Assembly (NCBI RefSeq): GCF_013385985.1
Contig: NZ_JACAOY010000014.1
Location: 62,001 to 126,000 of the forward strand
Length of the DNA stretch: 64,000 bases
Origin: Pseudomonas sp. B6002
Lineage (GTDB): Bacteria > Pseudomonadota > Gammaproteobacteria > Pseudomonadales > Pseudomonadaceae
Reading direction: 5' to 3'
Below are positions 22,453 to 49,052 of the stretch, one piece after another. The position numbers and the translations under genes are program-made. Below the pieces are notes generated by a model. It was not told the origin of the DNA. It searched no databases and worked only from the letters and a program-made list of their open reading frames with translations. Within the stretch, counting starts at the first letter, position 1; the number at the start of each line of letters is the position of its first letter.

Positions 22453-23268
22453 TCATCGGTCGAACCACGCCAGCAATACCGTGACGTTATCGCGCCCGGC
22501 GTACTCGCGGGTGAGGTTGACCAGACGTTGGCACGCCGTTTCTAGCGTGTCGCGTTGGGCGACCGCGAGTACCTGGAGCATTTCCTGGTGTGGCACGCAG
22601 CCGTGCAGGCCGTCACTGCACAGCATCAACAGGTCGCCGGGCTGAATCGGGTGAACACGTACCTGCGGTTCGACCCGGGGGCCGGGGCCGATGGCTTGCA
22701 GCAACAAGTTGCGTGCAGGCAGCCGGTCGACCTTGCCGGCTTCGAGGGCTTGCTGGTACCAGGTCTGGTCGCGAGTCAGCAGGCTCAGTTCGCCCTCGCG
22801 GTAGCGGTACAGGCGGCTGTCGCCCACATGGAACACCAGTAACGGCCCGTTTGATTGCGGGCGCCACACGCCAGTAAGGGTGGTGCCCATGCCGCTGCCT
22901 TCGCTCATGTGGCGGGCCACGTTCTGCTGGTACACGCACTGGTTCACCTGGTCGATGGCGTTGTGCAACAGGCTGGCGGCTTGCATCTGCGGGTCGGACC
23001 AGGTGGCGTCGGGGTCGAGGCCGTCGTGGGTCGGGTCGACGCTGTGAACCTTGAGGGCCTCGCGCAGGCTGACCAAGGCTTCGGCGCTGGCCAGGGCGCC
23101 GGCCTCATGGCCACCCATGCCATCGGCCACGGCGAGCAGGCCCAGGGCCGGCTCCACCAGGAAATTGTCTTCGTTACTCTGGCGCACCGAACCGACATCA
23201 CTGACCCCATAGGCAACCGCAGCGGCCAGTTGATGGGGCCCGCAGGCGCTGAGTGGGGAATCGGTCAT
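22453..23268 (-). CDS. PP2C-type Ser/Thr protein phosphatase
   Basis: 271 residues, soluble. The PP2C metal-binding motifs are in order: SVRQSNEDNFL (Asp), LLAVADGMGGHEAG (Asp-Gly), GMGTTLTG, FHVGDSRLYRY, LLMLCSDGLHG and GRDNVTVLL. This is the Stp/PppA type that reverses Hanks-kinase phosphorylation. Its ATG overlaps the kinase stop by 4 bp (23265-23268), so kinase and phosphatase are translationally coupled. Confidence 0.92.
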   Translation of the reverse strand: MTDSPLSACGPHQLAAAVAYGVSDVGSVRQSNEDNFLVEPALGLLAVADGMGGHEAGALASAEALVSLREALKVHSVDPTHDGLDPDATWSDPQMQAASLLHNAIDQVNQCVYQQNVARHMSEGSGMGTTLTGVWRPQSNGPLLVFHVGDSRLYRYREGELSLLTRDQTWYQQALEAGKVDRLPARNLLLQAIGPGPRVEPQVRVHPIQPGDLLMLCSDGLHGCVPHQEMLQVLAVAQRDTLETACQRLVNLTREYAGRDNVTVLLAWFDR

Positions 23269-45342: not shown

Positions 45343-46044
45343 ATGAAGGTTTTGATTGTTCACGCTCACCCTGAACCGCAGTCATTCACTGCCGCTCTGC
45401 GCGATAAGGCCATTGCCACGCTGCAAGGCCAGGGGCATGAGGTGCAGGTCAGCGACTTGTATACCATGCACTGGAACCCGGTGGCGTCGGCGGCGGACTT
45501 TTCGTCGCGGGAAAACCCTGACTACCTGGTGTACGCGCTGGAGCAGCGGCTGGGGGTGAAAAAGCAGTCGATTGCGGCGGATATTCAGGCCGAGCTGGAC
45601 AAGCTGTTATGGGCGGACCTGCTGATCCTCAACTTCCCGATCTTCTGGTTCTCGGCGCCGGCGATGCTCAAGGGCTGGATTGACCGGGTGCTGGTGTCTG
45701 GGGTGTGTTATGGCGGCAAGCGCTTTTACGATCAGGGCGGGTTGGCGGGCAAGCGGGCGCTGGTCACGGTGACCCTGGGCGGGCGTGAGCATATGTTCGG
45801 GGACGGTGCGATACATGGGCCGCTGGAAGACATGCTGCGCCCGATACTGCGGGGGACGCTGGCGTATGTGGGCTATGACGTGCTGGCGCCGTTTGTGGCC
45901 TGGCATGTGCCGTACATCAGTGATGAGGCGCGGCGGGACTTTCTGGTGACGTATGAACAGCGGCTGCAAGGGCTGGCGGATGAGCAGCCCTTGGTGTTTC
46001 CGAAGTTGGCGCAGTTTGATGAGGCGTTGTATCCCCGGCCTTGA
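45343..46044 (+). CDS. NAD(P)H dehydrogenase (quinone)-like flavoprotein
   Basis: 233 residues, flavodoxin-like fold of the NQO1/MdaB/YwrO group. Motifs: MKVLIVHAHPEPQSFTAALR (flavin phosphate site), ADLLILNFPIFWFSAPAMLK followed by GWIDRV, and GKRALVTVTLGG. It reduces quinones or other electrophiles with two electrons. It starts 9 bp after the fused ATPase, making it the last gene of the island, perhaps protective or catalytic in the pathway. Confidence 0.88.
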   Translation: MKVLIVHAHPEPQSFTAALRDKAIATLQGQGHEVQVSDLYTMHWNPVASAADFSSRENPDYLVYALEQRLGVKKQSIAADIQAELDKLLWADLLILNFPIFWFSAPAMLKGWIDRVLVSGVCYGGKRFYDQGGLAGKRALVTVTLGGREHMFGDGAIHGPLEDMLRPILRGTLAYVGYDVLAPFVAWHVPYISDEARRDFLVTYEQRLQGLADEQPLVFPKLAQFDEALYPRP

Positions 46045-46058
46045 GTTCACTGTGGGTC

Positions 46059-46153
46059 AAATGTGGGAGCTGGCTTGCCTGCGATGGCGACCTGTCAGGC
46101 TACGCATCTGTAGCTGATGTACCGCTATCGCAGGCAAGCCAGCTCCCACATTT
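46059..46153. repeat. REP-type palindromic element between convergent genes
   Basis: AAATGTGGGAGCTGGCTTGCC pairs with GGCAAGCCAGCTCCCACATTT; the loop is about 45 nt. Same subtype as 8577-8650. The TTTTT after the right arm lets it act as a terminator for the flavoprotein transcript. Confidence 0.88.
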
Positions 46154-46160
46154 TTGATCT

Positions 46161-47249
46161 TCACATGTCAGAGGTTTCGGTGCTGTGTGCGCGAAGACGC
46201 TCCGCCGCACTGCGCAACAGCTGCTCAGTCCCCGCCCAACCCAGGCAACCATCGGTCACCGACACACCGTATTTCATCGACGCGCTCAACGGCTGGCAGC
46301 CTTCGAACAGGTGGCTTTCAATCATCATGCCGATGAGCGAAGTGTCGCCTTGCAGGCGTTGCTCCAGTACGTCATTGAAAACCGCCGGCTGACGCAGCGG
46401 GTCCTTGCCACTGTTGGCATGGCTGCAGTCGACCATGATCCGTGCCGCCACCTTGGACTTGGCCAGGTCCTGTTTCACTTGGGCCACGCTCTGGGCGTCG
46501 TAGTTCGGCCCACGGTGACCGCCGCGTAGCACCAGGTGGGTGTCGGGGTTGCCCGGGGTCTGGATGATCGCCGGGTGGCCCTGGCTGTCGACGCCGAAAT
46601 GGCGGTGCGGGTGGGATGCCGAGCGCATCGCGTCACAGGCAATCGCGACGCCGCCATCGGTGCCGTTCTTGAAGCCCACGGGCATGCCCAGGCCGCTGGC
46701 CATTTCACGGTGGATCTGGGACTCGGTGGTGCGTGCACCAATCGCCACCCAACTGAGCAGGTCGTCGAAGTAGCCGGCGGCCATGGGTTGCAGCAGTTCG
46801 GTGGCCACCGGCAGGCCCAGGCGCAGCATTTCGCGCATCAGTTCGCGCGACAGCGTGAGGCCGGCGGCCATGTCGTCGCTGCCGTCCAGGTGCGGGTCGT
46901 AGGCCAGGCCTTTCCAGCCGACGGTGGTGCGCGGTTTTTCGACGTAGGCGCGGATCACCAGCAGCATCTGGTCGCTGACGTCGAGTGCGAGTTTCTTCAG
47001 GTTGCGCGCGTATTCCATGGCCGACTCGGGGTCGTGGATCGAGCACGGGCCGACAATCACCAGCAAACGTGAATCTTCGCCATTGAGGATGGCGCGCACG
47101 GCTTGGCGATGGGCGTGGACTTGTTCATTGAGGAACGGGCTGAGGGGCAGCTGGTGCTTGAGCTCGAGGGAGCTGGGCAGGCGTTGGGTCAGCGCTTCGT
47201 TGGCGCTGGACAGGTTGGCAACAGGCAGAGCGGCGGTGGCAGAGTTCAT
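46161..47249 (-). CDS. 3-deoxy-7-phosphoheptulonate (DAHP) synthase, class I AroG/F/H type
   Basis: 362 residues. It condenses phosphoenolpyruvate and erythrose-4-phosphate, the first step of aromatic amino acid synthesis. Diagnostic segments are LLVIVGPCSIHDPESAMEYA, VEKPRTTVGWKGL, MPVGFKNGTDGG, LRGGHRGPNYDA, MVDCSHANSGKDP and the C-terminal GVSVTDGCLGW, which supply the metal (Cys, His, Glu, Asp) and PEP ligands. The N-terminal extension with the allosteric region is present. ATG 47249 follows AGGAAG; a TTG at 47255 is less likely. Upstream is an attenuator-like leader with aromatic codons (47298-47717), so expression should follow charged aromatic tRNA levels. Confidence 0.93.
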   Translation of the reverse strand: MNSATAALPVANLSSANEALTQRLPSSLELKHQLPLSPFLNEQVHAHRQAVRAILNGEDSRLLVIVGPCSIHDPESAMEYARNLKKLALDVSDQMLLVIRAYVEKPRTTVGWKGLAYDPHLDGSDDMAAGLTLSRELMREMLRLGLPVATELLQPMAAGYFDDLLSWVAIGARTTESQIHREMASGLGMPVGFKNGTDGGVAIACDAMRSASHPHRHFGVDSQGHPAIIQTPGNPDTHLVLRGGHRGPNYDAQSVAQVKQDLAKSKVAARIMVDCSHANSGKDPLRQPAVFNDVLEQRLQGDTSLIGMMIESHLFEGCQPLSASMKYGVSVTDGCLGWAGTEQLLRSAAERLRAHSTETSDM

Positions 47250-47297
47250 ATTCAAGGCTTCCTGGGCAAGCGGCGGGCTGTTCCCGCACGCTCGGCC

Positions 47298-47450
47298 CTA
47301 CTGGGGTGTTCGACAATTGGCCGTATCGGCGACGTGTGTTGGTTTGCCACCAATAGGTGACCGATCGGAGGCGGCAGGCTGTCCCGAACGGAGCTTGCTA
47401 AATCGCCATGCAGTGCTGGTGTCGTAGCGGTAATAGGTGGCGTAGTTCAT
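47298..47450 (-). CDS. Second aromatic-rich short ORF in the DAHP synthase leader
   Basis: 50 codons with a good ribosome site (AAAGGA before ATCACGAC-ATG). The first 17 residues are MNYATYYRYDTSTAWRF, with four Tyr, one Trp and one Phe. It lies between the intrinsic terminator (47494-47532) and the DAHP synthase start, 48 nt upstream of it. It may be a second leader peptide acting on read-through transcripts, for example on translation; the remaining C-terminal part has ordinary composition. No terminator follows it. Confidence 0.5.
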   Translation of the reverse strand: MNYATYYRYDTSTAWRFSKLRSGQPAASDRSPIGGKPTHVADTANCRTPQ

Positions 47451-47493
47451 GTCGTGATTCCTTTAAATGTTCTTCAAAAAAGTTAAGGGCCTG

Positions 47494-47532
47494 AAAAAAC
47501 AAAACCCCCGGTCGGGGAGCCGACCGGGGGTT
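47494..47532 (-). terminator. Intrinsic terminator/attenuator in the DAHP synthase leader
   Basis: Read on the minus strand: AACCCCCGGTCGG-CTCC-CCGACCGGGGGTT, a perfect 13-bp GC-rich stem, followed by TTGTTTTTT. It lies about 50 nt after the first leader ORF and 245 nt before the DAHP synthase start, the position expected for an attenuator. Confidence 0.85.
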
Positions 47533-47582
47533 AGATTTCTCTGGCAGGCGACCCCTTGAGTAGTGGCCGCCGATTTCAGGTA

Positions 47583-47717
47583 TCAGGCGCGCCAGTGGCT
47601 AAACCAATACCCAAAATAAAAGCTTACAGCTGCGCTCGAACCGTTCACGCGGGTAGCCGATACCGAACGCGGGGCGCTGGCAGCAGGGCAAACCTGAGTG
47701 TGGGTGAGTTGCAACAT
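47583..47717 (-). CDS. Aromatic leader peptide of the DAHP synthase attenuator
   Basis: 44 codons, ATG at 47717 with GGAGACATAAC upstream. Residues 33-42 are FYFGYWFSHW: three Phe, two Tyr and two Trp within ten codons, followed after two residues by the stop. A perfect intrinsic terminator begins about 50 nt further on. This is the classic arrangement for ribosome-mediated attenuation: scarcity of Phe-, Tyr- or Trp-tRNA stalls the ribosome at the run and favours an antiterminator. Confidence 0.7.
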   Translation of the reverse strand: MLQLTHTQVCPAASAPRSVSATRVNGSSAAVSFYFGYWFSHWRA

Positions 47718-47745
47718 GTTATGTCTCCAAATGATGGGGGTGAGC

Positions 47746-47772
47746 TTACTAGAGGCACGCAGGAGGATTCAA
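47746..47772 (-). promoter_or_regulatory. Possible promoter of the DAHP synthase leader
   Basis: On the minus strand TTGAAT (47772-47767) and TAGTAA (47751-47746) with a 15-bp spacer lie 29 bp before the leader ATG. The spacer is short, so this is tentative. Confidence 0.3.
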
Positions 47773-47859
47773 TCGGTAATTTCTATCGCGCAGGGGTACT
47801 GACGGCTATCGGTCGGGATATGCTGATAACACTTTGATACCGATTGCTTGGACGCGACC

Positions 47860-48609
47860 ATGACTGCCTTGACCCTTGCTGCTGCTCAATCTGCCTCCAT
47901 CGCCGGCGACGTGCCCGCCAATATCCAGCGGCATCTGCGATTGATGCACGCCGCCGCCGAGTATGGCGTGCAGGTATTGGTGTTCCCGGAATTGTCGCTG
48001 ACCGGGTATGAGCCGTCGCTGGCGGCCGACCTGGCGGTTGCCCCGGATGACGCGGTGCTGGCGCCGCTGCGGGAAATGGCGCGGGAGTTGCGAATGACGG
48101 CGGTGGTGGGGATGCCGATCCGCCTGGCACCTGAGGGCGGCGTGTTGATTGGCGCATTGGTGTTGGGGGCGGACGGCTCCCTGGCGGTCTACACCAAGCA
48201 GCACCTGCATCCGGGTGAGGAAGTGGCGTTTATTCCGGGGCAAGGCGGTGAAGCGCTCGAACGGGGCAGTGACCGTATTGCGCTGGCGGTATGTGCAGAC
48301 TTTTCCCACGTCAGCCATCCACACCAGGCGGCTGAATCGGGGGCCACGGTGTATGCCGCAGGTGTACTGATCAGCGAAGGCGGTTATGCCAATGACAGCG
48401 CGCTGCTTCAGGGATACGCCGCCGAGCATGGCTTGGTGGTGTTGATGGCCAACCATGGTGGCCCCTCGGGTGGCTACGTGTGTGCCGGTCGCAGTGCCAT
48501 CTGGTCGGTTGATGGCAGTTTGCTCGCATCCGCCCCCGGCGTTGGCGACGCCTTGGTGATCGCCCGCCGTGAGGACGTGCAGTGGGCTGGCCAAGTGGTC
48601 GTCCTCTAG
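47860..48609 (+). CDS. Carbon-nitrogen hydrolase (nitrilase superfamily)
   Basis: 249 residues. The catalytic triad is visible: Glu in LVFPELSLTGYEP, Lys in AVYTKQHLHPGEE and Cys in LAVCADFSH. The family hydrolyses amides, nitriles or N-carbamoyl compounds. The ATG at 47860 is preferred to an in-frame TTG 12 bp upstream. The GNAT gene starts 2 bp after the stop, so they are probably an operon. Confidence 0.87.
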   Translation: MTALTLAAAQSASIAGDVPANIQRHLRLMHAAAEYGVQVLVFPELSLTGYEPSLAADLAVAPDDAVLAPLREMARELRMTAVVGMPIRLAPEGGVLIGALVLGADGSLAVYTKQHLHPGEEVAFIPGQGGEALERGSDRIALAVCADFSHVSHPHQAAESGATVYAAGVLISEGGYANDSALLQGYAAEHGLVVLMANHGGPSGGYVCAGRSAIWSVDGSLLASAPGVGDALVIARREDVQWAGQVVVL

Positions 48610-48611
48610 CC

Positions 48612-49052
48612 ATGGCGTTTCACCTTCGAGCAGCGACAGATGAGGATCGTGTGTTTGCGCGAAAGCTCACCCGCGAAGCCATGAGCCGCTACTACCTTCA
48701 ATATGGGTTGTTGTGGTCTGACGATGGTTTCGACGTCGCTTGGGCGGGGCGCGAGAACTGGCTGATTTGCAACGATGACACGGTGATGGGCTTTATCAGC
48801 CTGAGTCGTGACAGCCGGGCGCTGTATATTCGCGAGCTGCATATGCTGGAGAGCTGTCGCAAACACGGCGCGGGCAGTTGGGTGCTCGAACAGATGGCGC
48901 TCAAGGCCCAGGCGCAGGGGCTTTTGCGCTTGACGGTGTTCAAGACCAATCCAGCGAGAAGACTGTACCAGCGGCTGGGTTTGAGCATCGTTGGAGAGGA
49001 AGATTGTTTCTGGCGCATGGAGCGCGAATGTCCTCGTGTTCCGGAGGCGTAG
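48612..49052 (+). CDS. GNAT-family N-acetyltransferase
   Basis: 146 residues. Acetyl-CoA binding segment LYIRELHMLESCRKHGAGSW, then LLRLTVFKTNPARRLYQRLG and a C-terminal strand (SIVGEEDCFWRMER). The usual R/Q-x-x-G-x-G loop reads CRKHGAGS. Substrate unknown; co-transcribed with the preceding hydrolase. Confidence 0.85.
   Translation: MAFHLRAATDEDRVFARKLTREAMSRYYLQYGLLWSDDGFDVAWAGRENWLICNDDTVMGFISLSRDSRALYIRELHMLESCRKHGAGSWVLEQMALKAQAQGLLRLTVFKTNPARRLYQRLGLSIVGEEDCFWRMERECPRVPEA

Follow-up and report, generated by a model that had tools for sequence, protein, structure and literature searches.

Two serial leader peptides, the second followed by a pseudoknot, as a proposed tandem control of the DAHP synthase gene in Pseudomonadaceae and Halomonadaceae

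A DAHP synthase gene of Pseudomonas sp. B6002 is preceded on its own strand by two short leader reading frames, and we propose that, in Pseudomonadaceae and Halomonadaceae, these two serial leader peptides govern how much enters the aromatic pathway. In the window, by which we mean the whole 64-kb stretch of DNA that was analysed, the minus strand carries in order a promoter-like sequence, leader 1 (L1), a terminator, leader 2 (L2) and the gene of a type I DAHP synthase. We put the probability that the first tier is an attenuator and that L2 is a real regulatory leader at about 0.85, a figure that excludes the mechanism of the second tier. The fuller reading stands at roughly even odds: one starvation would be read twice, at two steps of expression, with L1 stopping transcription, with L2 acting on the read-through mRNA by way of an undescribed element in which a fixed TGG-CGA-TTT-A site abuts an H-type pseudoknot, and with Tyr weighted in the second leader.

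The gene runs from an ATG at 47249 to a stop at 46161 (minus strand). Matches to PF00793 and NCBIfam aroFGH confirmed it as a DAHP synthase of the aroFGH family, on the strand that the sequence-only reading had given for both gene and leader. Its Shine-Dalgarno sequence AGGAAG lies at 47263-47258 (minus strand), and the interval between the L2 stop and this site holds a hairpin, GCGGG...CCCGC (47273..47287, minus strand), found in single-sequence folds and in the consensus folds of relatives. The divergent neighbour on the plus strand, at 47848, is a carbon-nitrogen hydrolase. On the 3' side of the gene we observed a long inverted repeat (window about 46076-46148, arms around GTGGGAGCTGGCTTGCCTGCGA and TCGCAGGCAAGCCAGCTCCCAC), which we take to resemble the repeated palindromes of pseudomonads. 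A protein search found a second type I DAHP synthase in the same genome (L003, contig C11:94417; 53% identical). The locus on C11 is without a comparable leader, as three weak ORFs reach 4 aromatics per 10 residues and none of them is on the strand of this second gene; the two isoenzymes may therefore differ in control. Among the ten matches listed in a plasmid search with the locus as a query, only the coding part matched.

L1 is an ORF of 44 codons (ATG 47717 to TGA 47583, minus strand) with its own ribosome site, GGAG before the ATG (ttGGAGacataacATG). Its residues 33-42 form the aromatic run FYFGYWFSHW (F33-W42), exactly as had been described from the letters. Across the 64-kb window, one small ORF (10-70 amino acids) reaches 7 aromatics per 10 residues; none did so in 30 second-order Markov copies of the window, where the mean number with at least 6 aromatics was 0.07. 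A 55-residue ORF with 6 aromatics per 10 residues, at 22880 on the plus strand, is probably due to chance. Neither leader peptide was matched by Pfam or NCBIfam.

Conservation was assessed in two sets of loci. Set 1 comprised 80 named loci, the best 80 of 595, of which L080, starting inside the gene, was dropped; set 2 comprised 131 loci (L118-L248), shares species with set 1 and includes some identical peptides. All 79 named loci that include upstream DNA (best 80 of 595), from Pseudomonas to Halomonas, have L1 ahead of the DAHP synthase gene on the same strand. Alignment of the aromatic run in relatives had been suggested as a check, and the run is kept throughout: in each of the 79 named loci (best 80 of 595), the final 26 codons of L1 include Phe, Tyr and Trp. 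The ending types include FYFGYWFSHWRA and YFFYGYWFSQRRA, with GYGYWFRTGVPAG in Salinicola. By rule, L1 was found in 114 loci of set 2, a looser rule added 13 more, and neither rule found it in L236, L239, L243 and L246. The relative of this DAHP synthase in another family of the order also follows a strongly aromatic leader, of a different sequence (FFWWFGYGFYFSQ or FSWWFSYGFYFSQ), in 8 of the 9 loci counted (L256-L263 and L265, with L262 as the miss); the 11 other loci retrieved together with these nine had no leader of this kind.

The aromatic residues of L1 are spelled with rare codons. In 31 fluorescens-group sequences, L1 uses TTT 89 times and TTC once, and TAT 61 times and TAC twice, as compared to 6 TTT and 162 TTC, and 13 TAT and 170 TAC, within codons 1-350 of the gene. 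This spelling fits a slow, tRNA-sensitive stretch, while the pairing of segment 1 described below constrains it too.

A promoter-like sequence, TTGAAT - 15 nt - TAGTAA (47746..47772, minus strand), lies before L1; the sigma-70 scan was silent on it, and its element AGTAAGCTC is conserved in the fluorescens and putida types. Within 80 nt of the L1 start, AGTAAGCTC was present in 36 of 39 sequences of the fluorescens and putida types (window included), 33 of which have a TTGA box. By type, it occurred in 28 of 31 fluorescens sequences (window included) and in 8 of 8 putida sequences; a TTGA box at a distance of 13-20 nt accompanies it in 25 of the former and 8 of the latter. It was found in 0 of 23 sequences of the aeruginosa, stutzeri and Halopseudomonas types (4 with a looser pattern) and in only 1 of the 16 remaining (Halomonadaceae) sequences. 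A start of transcription downstream of the terminator had been named as speaking against an attenuator. The sigma-70 scan of 46000-49000 gave no promoter between the terminator and the gene, its sole reported site falling inside the DAHP synthase gene, and the conserved promoter-like sequence is upstream of L1.

The intrinsic terminator expected about 50 nt after the leader stop is present at 47532-47503 (feature 47503..47532, tail to 47494, minus strand; segments 5 and 6 below). Its stem begins 50 nt past the L1 stop and has 13 pairs, a CTCC loop and the tail TTGTTTTTT. A rule-based search recovered the terminator, whose conservation had likewise been at issue, in 79 of 80 sequences (window included; loci are the best 80 of 595); it missed L081, where the stem is visible by eye. 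The same region matches the Rfam family P15 (RF00627) at 47505..47625 (minus strand) with 105.4 bits against a gathering score of 70. This full-length match, the only one in the genome, spans L1 from the aromatic run through the terminator. Over the cut-off, the Rfam scan of the 64-kb window gave only P15 and a tRNA, and no T-box or known amino-acid leader exceeded its gathering score. Among 399 genomes of the genus, 362 carry a P15 match, which exceeds the cut-off in 361; the 14 control genomes have none. Two matches were seen in some members of the genus, e.g., G016, G065, G094, G212 and G253. The consensus structure given by Rfam is the terminated fold. P15, filed as an sRNA, is probably the terminated leader of the DAHP synthase gene.

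Folding with the ribosome footprint masked pointed to six segments in this leader: GGGUAUUGG (1), GGCGCGCCUGAUACC (2), GGCGCCC (3; GGCGGCC in the window), GGGUCGCC (4), the terminator 5' arm with its loop (5) and the terminator 3' arm (6). In the window, all on the minus strand, segment 1 is GGGTATTGG (47604..47612, codons Gly-Tyr-Trp), which according to the P15 alignment pairs with segment 2 when the ribosome is absent; segment 2 is GGCGCGCCTGATACC (47579..47593) and spans the L1 stop codon; segment 3 lies at 47565..47571; and segment 4 is GGGGTCGCC (47547..47555), with either segment 3 or the terminator 5' arm as its partner. In our model, the pairings 1:2, 3:4 and 5:6 would lead to termination and the pairings 2:3 and 4:5 to read-through, the two sets being mutually exclusive. 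Six-segment layouts are those of the his, leu and thr attenuators, and the trp layout has four segments. The trp/phe-like attenuator layout that had been claimed is right as to the ORF and the terminator, and it departs from an exact match to trp in having six segments.

The two folds were compared across species in an alignment (A3) of 41 Halomonadaceae sequences, out of 70 left by an identity filter. In this alignment, which was picked by eye with harder-to-align types excluded, so that its percentages flatter the structure, the antiterminator (2:3 plus 4:5) has 97.9% of its cells paired and slid versions at most 50%, the pair columns having been taken from single sequences or folds, which favours true pairs over slid ones. 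The antiterminator shows 37 both-side changes against 13.2 in shuffles, with 0 of 500 shuffles reaching 37; the changes are confined to 3 of 16 pairs, a spread that shuffles also give (3.0, with 447 of 500 reaching it). They comprise exchanges between C-G and U-A in 17 sequences and between U-A and C-G in 11 in helix 2:3, and between U-A and C-G in 8 in helix 4:5. For the terminated fold (3:4 plus 5:6) in the same 41 sequences, 96.4% of cells pair, and 32 both-side cells fall in 7 of 20 pairs, against 5.0 cells and 3.2 pairs in shuffles. Among Pseudomonadaceae and near families (36 sequences), 95.3% of cells are paired in the terminated set and 80.1% or 87.3% in the antiterminator set, according to which of two 4:5 registers is used; the antiterminator has both-side changes in 2 pairs with one register and in 1 with the other, which does not exceed the shuffles. 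A competing antiterminator, which had been proposed as something to look for, exists, with its compensatory changes in 3 of 16 pairs of the 41 chosen Halomonadaceae sequences. This comparison supports the putative L1 switch in Halomonadaceae and is only consistent with it in the window's own family. In many species, masked folding left the terminator 5' arm similarly engaged with the ribosome stalled or on the stop codon, so that the switch does not emerge from the energy model by itself.

The sequence-only reading had described a single leader sensing Phe, Tyr and Trp together. The three amino acids are indeed all in L1 (79 of 79; best 80 of 595), but a second aromatic leader had been overlooked. 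L2, between the terminator and the gene, is an ORF of 50 codons (47298..47450, minus strand; MNYATYYRYDTSTAWRFS..., ribosome site AAAGGA) encoding MNYATYYRYD...AWRFS.... It was found in 75 of 79 named loci (best 80 of 595), the four without it being Salinicola. Across these 75 loci (best 80 of 595), a mean of 3.7 Tyr per 14 codons precedes the Trp, followed by WRF(S/T). The codons Trp-Arg-Phe plus A make up the 10-nt motif TGGCGATTTA (47399..47408, minus strand), identical in 74 of 75 L2 loci (best 80 of 595) with TGGCGCTTTA in L068 as the exception; CGA encodes the Arg in every locus except L068, and TTT for Phe and the A after it are kept in all. The set 1 search was made by peptide, as WRF then S or T in any codons (L054 was placed by a second rule), so that 74 of 75 is a fair count, and the identity under a scan indifferent to codon choice reflects selection both on the codons and on the nucleotides themselves. 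The scan of set 2 took only six WRF spellings, and its 93 sequences with the 10-mer are therefore no independent test of invariance. In this set the residue after WRF may be Asn, Ile or Lys, with the base A still kept; the hits in L148 and L241 are due to chance. The motif TGGCGATTTA also occurs in L258, within a Tyr-poor second ORF followed by an apparent strong hairpin.

We also asked whether the invariant 10 nt have one pairing partner. Their best complement is L1 segment 4 (47547-47555) in the fluorescens and aeruginosa groups, with mean z-scores of -4.9 and -4.3, respectively (22 sequences each), against permuted 10-mers. The complementarity was not seen in putida types (8 sequences) or in the Halomonadaceae group (22 sequences), so this candidate was rejected and does not explain the invariance of the motif.

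A few nucleotides past the motif, a pattern search detected an H-type pseudoknot in 48 of 75 named loci (best 80 of 595). In the window, on the minus strand, stem 1 is formed by CCGTTCGG (47384..47391) and CCGATCGG (47361..47368), with one mismatch, and stem 2 by GCCGCC (47370..47375) and GGTGGC (47346..47351). By type, the pseudoknot was found in 30 of 30 fluorescens, 5 of 8 putida (not L034, L037 or L057) and 13 of 14 remaining named loci (not L073), and in 0 of 23 of the aeruginosa, stutzeri and Halopseudomonas types (pattern search; all among the best 80 of 595). In non-Pseudomonas types, stem 1 has 6-9 contiguous pairs, stem 2 has 4-8, and the junction measures 0-2 nt. Most fluorescens and putida types have a stem 1 of only 5 contiguous pairs, or 8 with one mismatch, and its score was reached by 0-5 of 40 shuffles. 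In an alignment (A1) of 69 sequences, i.e., 68 loci and the window, 96.0% of 966 cells pair, against at most 48% in slid versions, with loci lacking the pseudoknot and loci at least 93% identical excluded by list and with TGGCG and TTT or TTC demanded by the filter. Here too the pair columns came from single sequences or folds, to the advantage of the true pairs over slid ones. Both sides changed in 10 of 14 pairs, in 70 cells against 18.9 in shuffles (0 of 500). RNAalifold, given no information on the pseudoknot, recovered 7 of the 8 stem 1 pairs. Cobetia L076 (CCTGCC:GGCAGG with GTCACC:GGTGAC) and L227 (CGGCAGCGG:CCGCTGCCG with GCGCCG:CGGCGC) have both stems changed and both kept.

A model of the element gave one strong site in the genome of the window. 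Across 274 genomes of the class, under strict filters, it gave two strong sites, one in this genome and one in a genome of the Halomonadaceae group, besides two marginal ones (E 0.005 and 0.007). An Rfam search of the L2 region to E 5 returned matches only around L1 and the terminator and one on the opposite strand inside the gene. A hairpin replacing the pseudoknot was rejected for the 31 sequences that lack it (the aeruginosa, stutzeri and Halopseudomonas types together with L126 and L127), in which the shuffle z was mostly near 0 and at lowest -1.7.

The position of L2 relative to the gene varies with lineage. In fluorescens and putida types, 44-50 nt separate its stop from the gene's ATG; the distance is 37-48 nt in aeruginosa, stutzeri and Halopseudomonas types, and in both cases a hairpin often lies between. 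Among the 12 named Halomonadaceae loci, with starts set by rule, 7 have the stop at most 8 nt from the ATG or overlapping it. Measured against shuffles, pairing between the L2 codon run and the region from the Shine-Dalgarno site to the start gave a z of the mean of 9.05 in 11 aeruginosa/stutzeri-type sequences, with GACTGGCG:CGCCAGTC in L041 and TATGACTGGCG:CGCCAGTCATG in L055, and of 6.38 in 6 putida-type sequences, with TGGCGATTT:AAATCGCCA in L035. This pairing was faint in the fluorescens group including the window (z 2.43), where CCTGG:CCAGG covers the Shine-Dalgarno site in many sequences and less so in the window; it was absent in Halopseudomonas types (z -0.01) and in the remaining group of 54 sequences (z 1.12), which are mostly Halomonadaceae and include two Pseudomonas loci (L050 and L073). 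Cognate duplexes of the codon run with the ribosome-binding region were only slightly more stable than swapped ones in the aeruginosa group (-13.67 vs -12.43 kcal/mol), with no difference elsewhere. Sequestration of the Shine-Dalgarno site by the pseudoknot region was considered and rejected, stalling having no consistent effect on accessibility among the rows listed. Where the codon run does pair in this way, the layout is that of the LEU element discussed below, and we therefore put translational control first among the mechanisms for L2. L2 would then act on translation through pairing of its control codons with the region of the gene where the ribosome binds; such translational control is our tentative choice, to which the analysis gives somewhat less than an even chance.

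Other explanations would detach the conserved sequences from leader translation. P15 could be a free, trans-acting small RNA, next to which the leader ORF and the attenuator-like folds would be incidental. Rfam files it as an sRNA gene, and the account in PMC2375449, as far as it is drawn on here, credits Livny et al. with its detection as an sRNA in P. aeruginosa. We regard this as very unlikely, given that L1 stands before DAHP synthase on the same strand in 79 of 79 named loci (best 80 of 595), that the aromatic residues are kept in each named locus, and that the alternative antiterminator fold is kept in Halomonadaceae. The same question arises for L2, where TGGCGATTTA and the pseudoknot could be an untranslated RNA element binding a ligand or protein within a frame that is open by chance. 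The WRF codons do not change at any position in the 31 fluorescens-group sequences, and Tyr before the Trp falls to one in L076 and to none in L258, as might be expected of such an element. Against this, the open frame and its Tyr codons are kept in 75 named loci (best 80 of 595), ribosome sites precede the listed starts, and TAT and TAC replace each other synonymously. An untranslated L2 is therefore doubtful in our view, if the strongest of these contenders.

If L2 is translated, as we prefer to read it, its signal could still be something other than charged tRNA. A programmed frameshift or ribosome arrest at TGG CGA TTT plus the pseudoknot would make a product or a pause the signal. The spacer from TGGCGATTTANN to the first stem is 3-9 nt, the geometry of pseudoknot-stimulated pausing, and the identity of the 10 nt exceeds what the peptide needs; yet a slippery heptamer was not found, the +1 and -1 frames run to stops at scattered positions, and loci without the pseudoknot still have the motif. 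With no second frame conserved downstream, frameshifting in L2 was rejected, and we hold the combined frameshift-or-arrest explanation to be rather improbable. L2 could also be a Rho-controlled attenuator whose translation hides or exposes a downstream Rho site. The end of L2 has more C than G, with a mean excess of 0.10 over 70 nt in 76 sequences, but equally C-biased stretches are common in the gene itself (fraction 0.31 for the sequence of the window), and a starvation halt on the L2 codons would expose a Rho site, which is the wrong direction. A Rho site in L2 was rejected, as the composition is not unusual, and Rho control appears quite unlikely.

Translational control by L2 behind attenuation at L1 would work as follows. 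Transcription would begin before L1, and the DAHP synthase gene would be under tandem control from its own leader. When Phe-, Tyr- or Trp-tRNA is short, a ribosome would halt on the aromatic codons and cover segment 1, leaving segment 2 free; segments 2 and 3 would pair, segment 4 would take the terminator 5' arm, and RNA polymerase would read through. With all three tRNAs charged, the ribosome at the L1 stop would cover segment 2, segments 3 and 4 would pair, and the terminator would form, so that a short RNA, P15, would be released; it may be a by-product. If L1 is not translated, 1:2, 3:4 and the terminator are expected to form. For this first tier, with its ORF, terminator and conserved pairing, we infer a response to tRNA charging from the sequences. 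The read-through RNA would then bear L2, with Tyr codons ending in TGG CGA TTT, which in most groups lies a few nucleotides ahead of the pseudoknot. A slowed L2 ribosome would keep the control codons off the gene's ribosome-binding region, and shortage might thus raise translation as well. Conservation and the pseudoknot characterize this second tier, and its mechanism is offered with less than even confidence.

Such an arrangement would propose a function for the catalogued small RNA family P15 and place control of the entry step of the shikimate pathway in a large group of bacteria. A covariation-supported pseudoknot within a leader ORF makes double checking of one mRNA for the same amino acids testable, and engineers raising aromatic flux in Pseudomonas would face both tiers.

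Like the his, leu and thr attenuators and the trp and phe leaders, L1 combines control codons, a terminator and two alternative sets of paired segments; unlike them, it would read three amino acids at the entry enzyme of a shared pathway. Whereas the Rfam entry treats P15 as an sRNA gene, here it appears as the terminated leader of the following gene, and its Halomonadaceae counterparts were found through the ORF and terminator and not through the P15 score. In the openly available full-text literature, as represented by titles and the beginnings of abstracts and with subscription journals mostly outside it, neither attenuation at a Pseudomonas DAHP synthase gene nor L2 came up; nor are they named in the portions consulted of PMC8297930 (3' ends in P. 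aeruginosa), PMC2965389, PMC8632094 and PMC2659441.

The closest likeness to L2 is the LEU element before actinobacterial leuA, in which, according to the parts of PMC1262725 used here, a run of Leu codons pairs with the Shine-Dalgarno box around a pseudoknot. L2 shares with it a leader ORF with control codons and a conserved pseudoknot, as well as the base stem between codon run and Shine-Dalgarno site, which is well supported in only two lineages here; one of these, the aeruginosa/stutzeri types, is without the pseudoknot, unlike LEU. LEU is further described there with Leu codons and no preceding terminator stage, while L2 uses Tyr, Trp and Phe behind a terminator, and we claim no homology. 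The same source states that mutations of the Leu codons in the leuA leader are at odds with classical attenuation and point instead to a regulatory protein, which calls for caution with L2 too. The tandem attenuators of Salmonella mgtCBR (PMC3641672) likewise have two short ORFs in one leader, as far as that account was drawn on, but they belong to another operon, and no pseudoknot is mentioned in that part. Taken with these systems, L1 is a further case of a known attenuator type and gives P15 a likely role; we claim no priority for its recognition. Two leader ORFs in one leader and a leader ORF with a pseudoknot are each known, and their combination at a DAHP synthase gene, with L2 and its pseudoknot behind a terminator, did not come up in the openly available literature.
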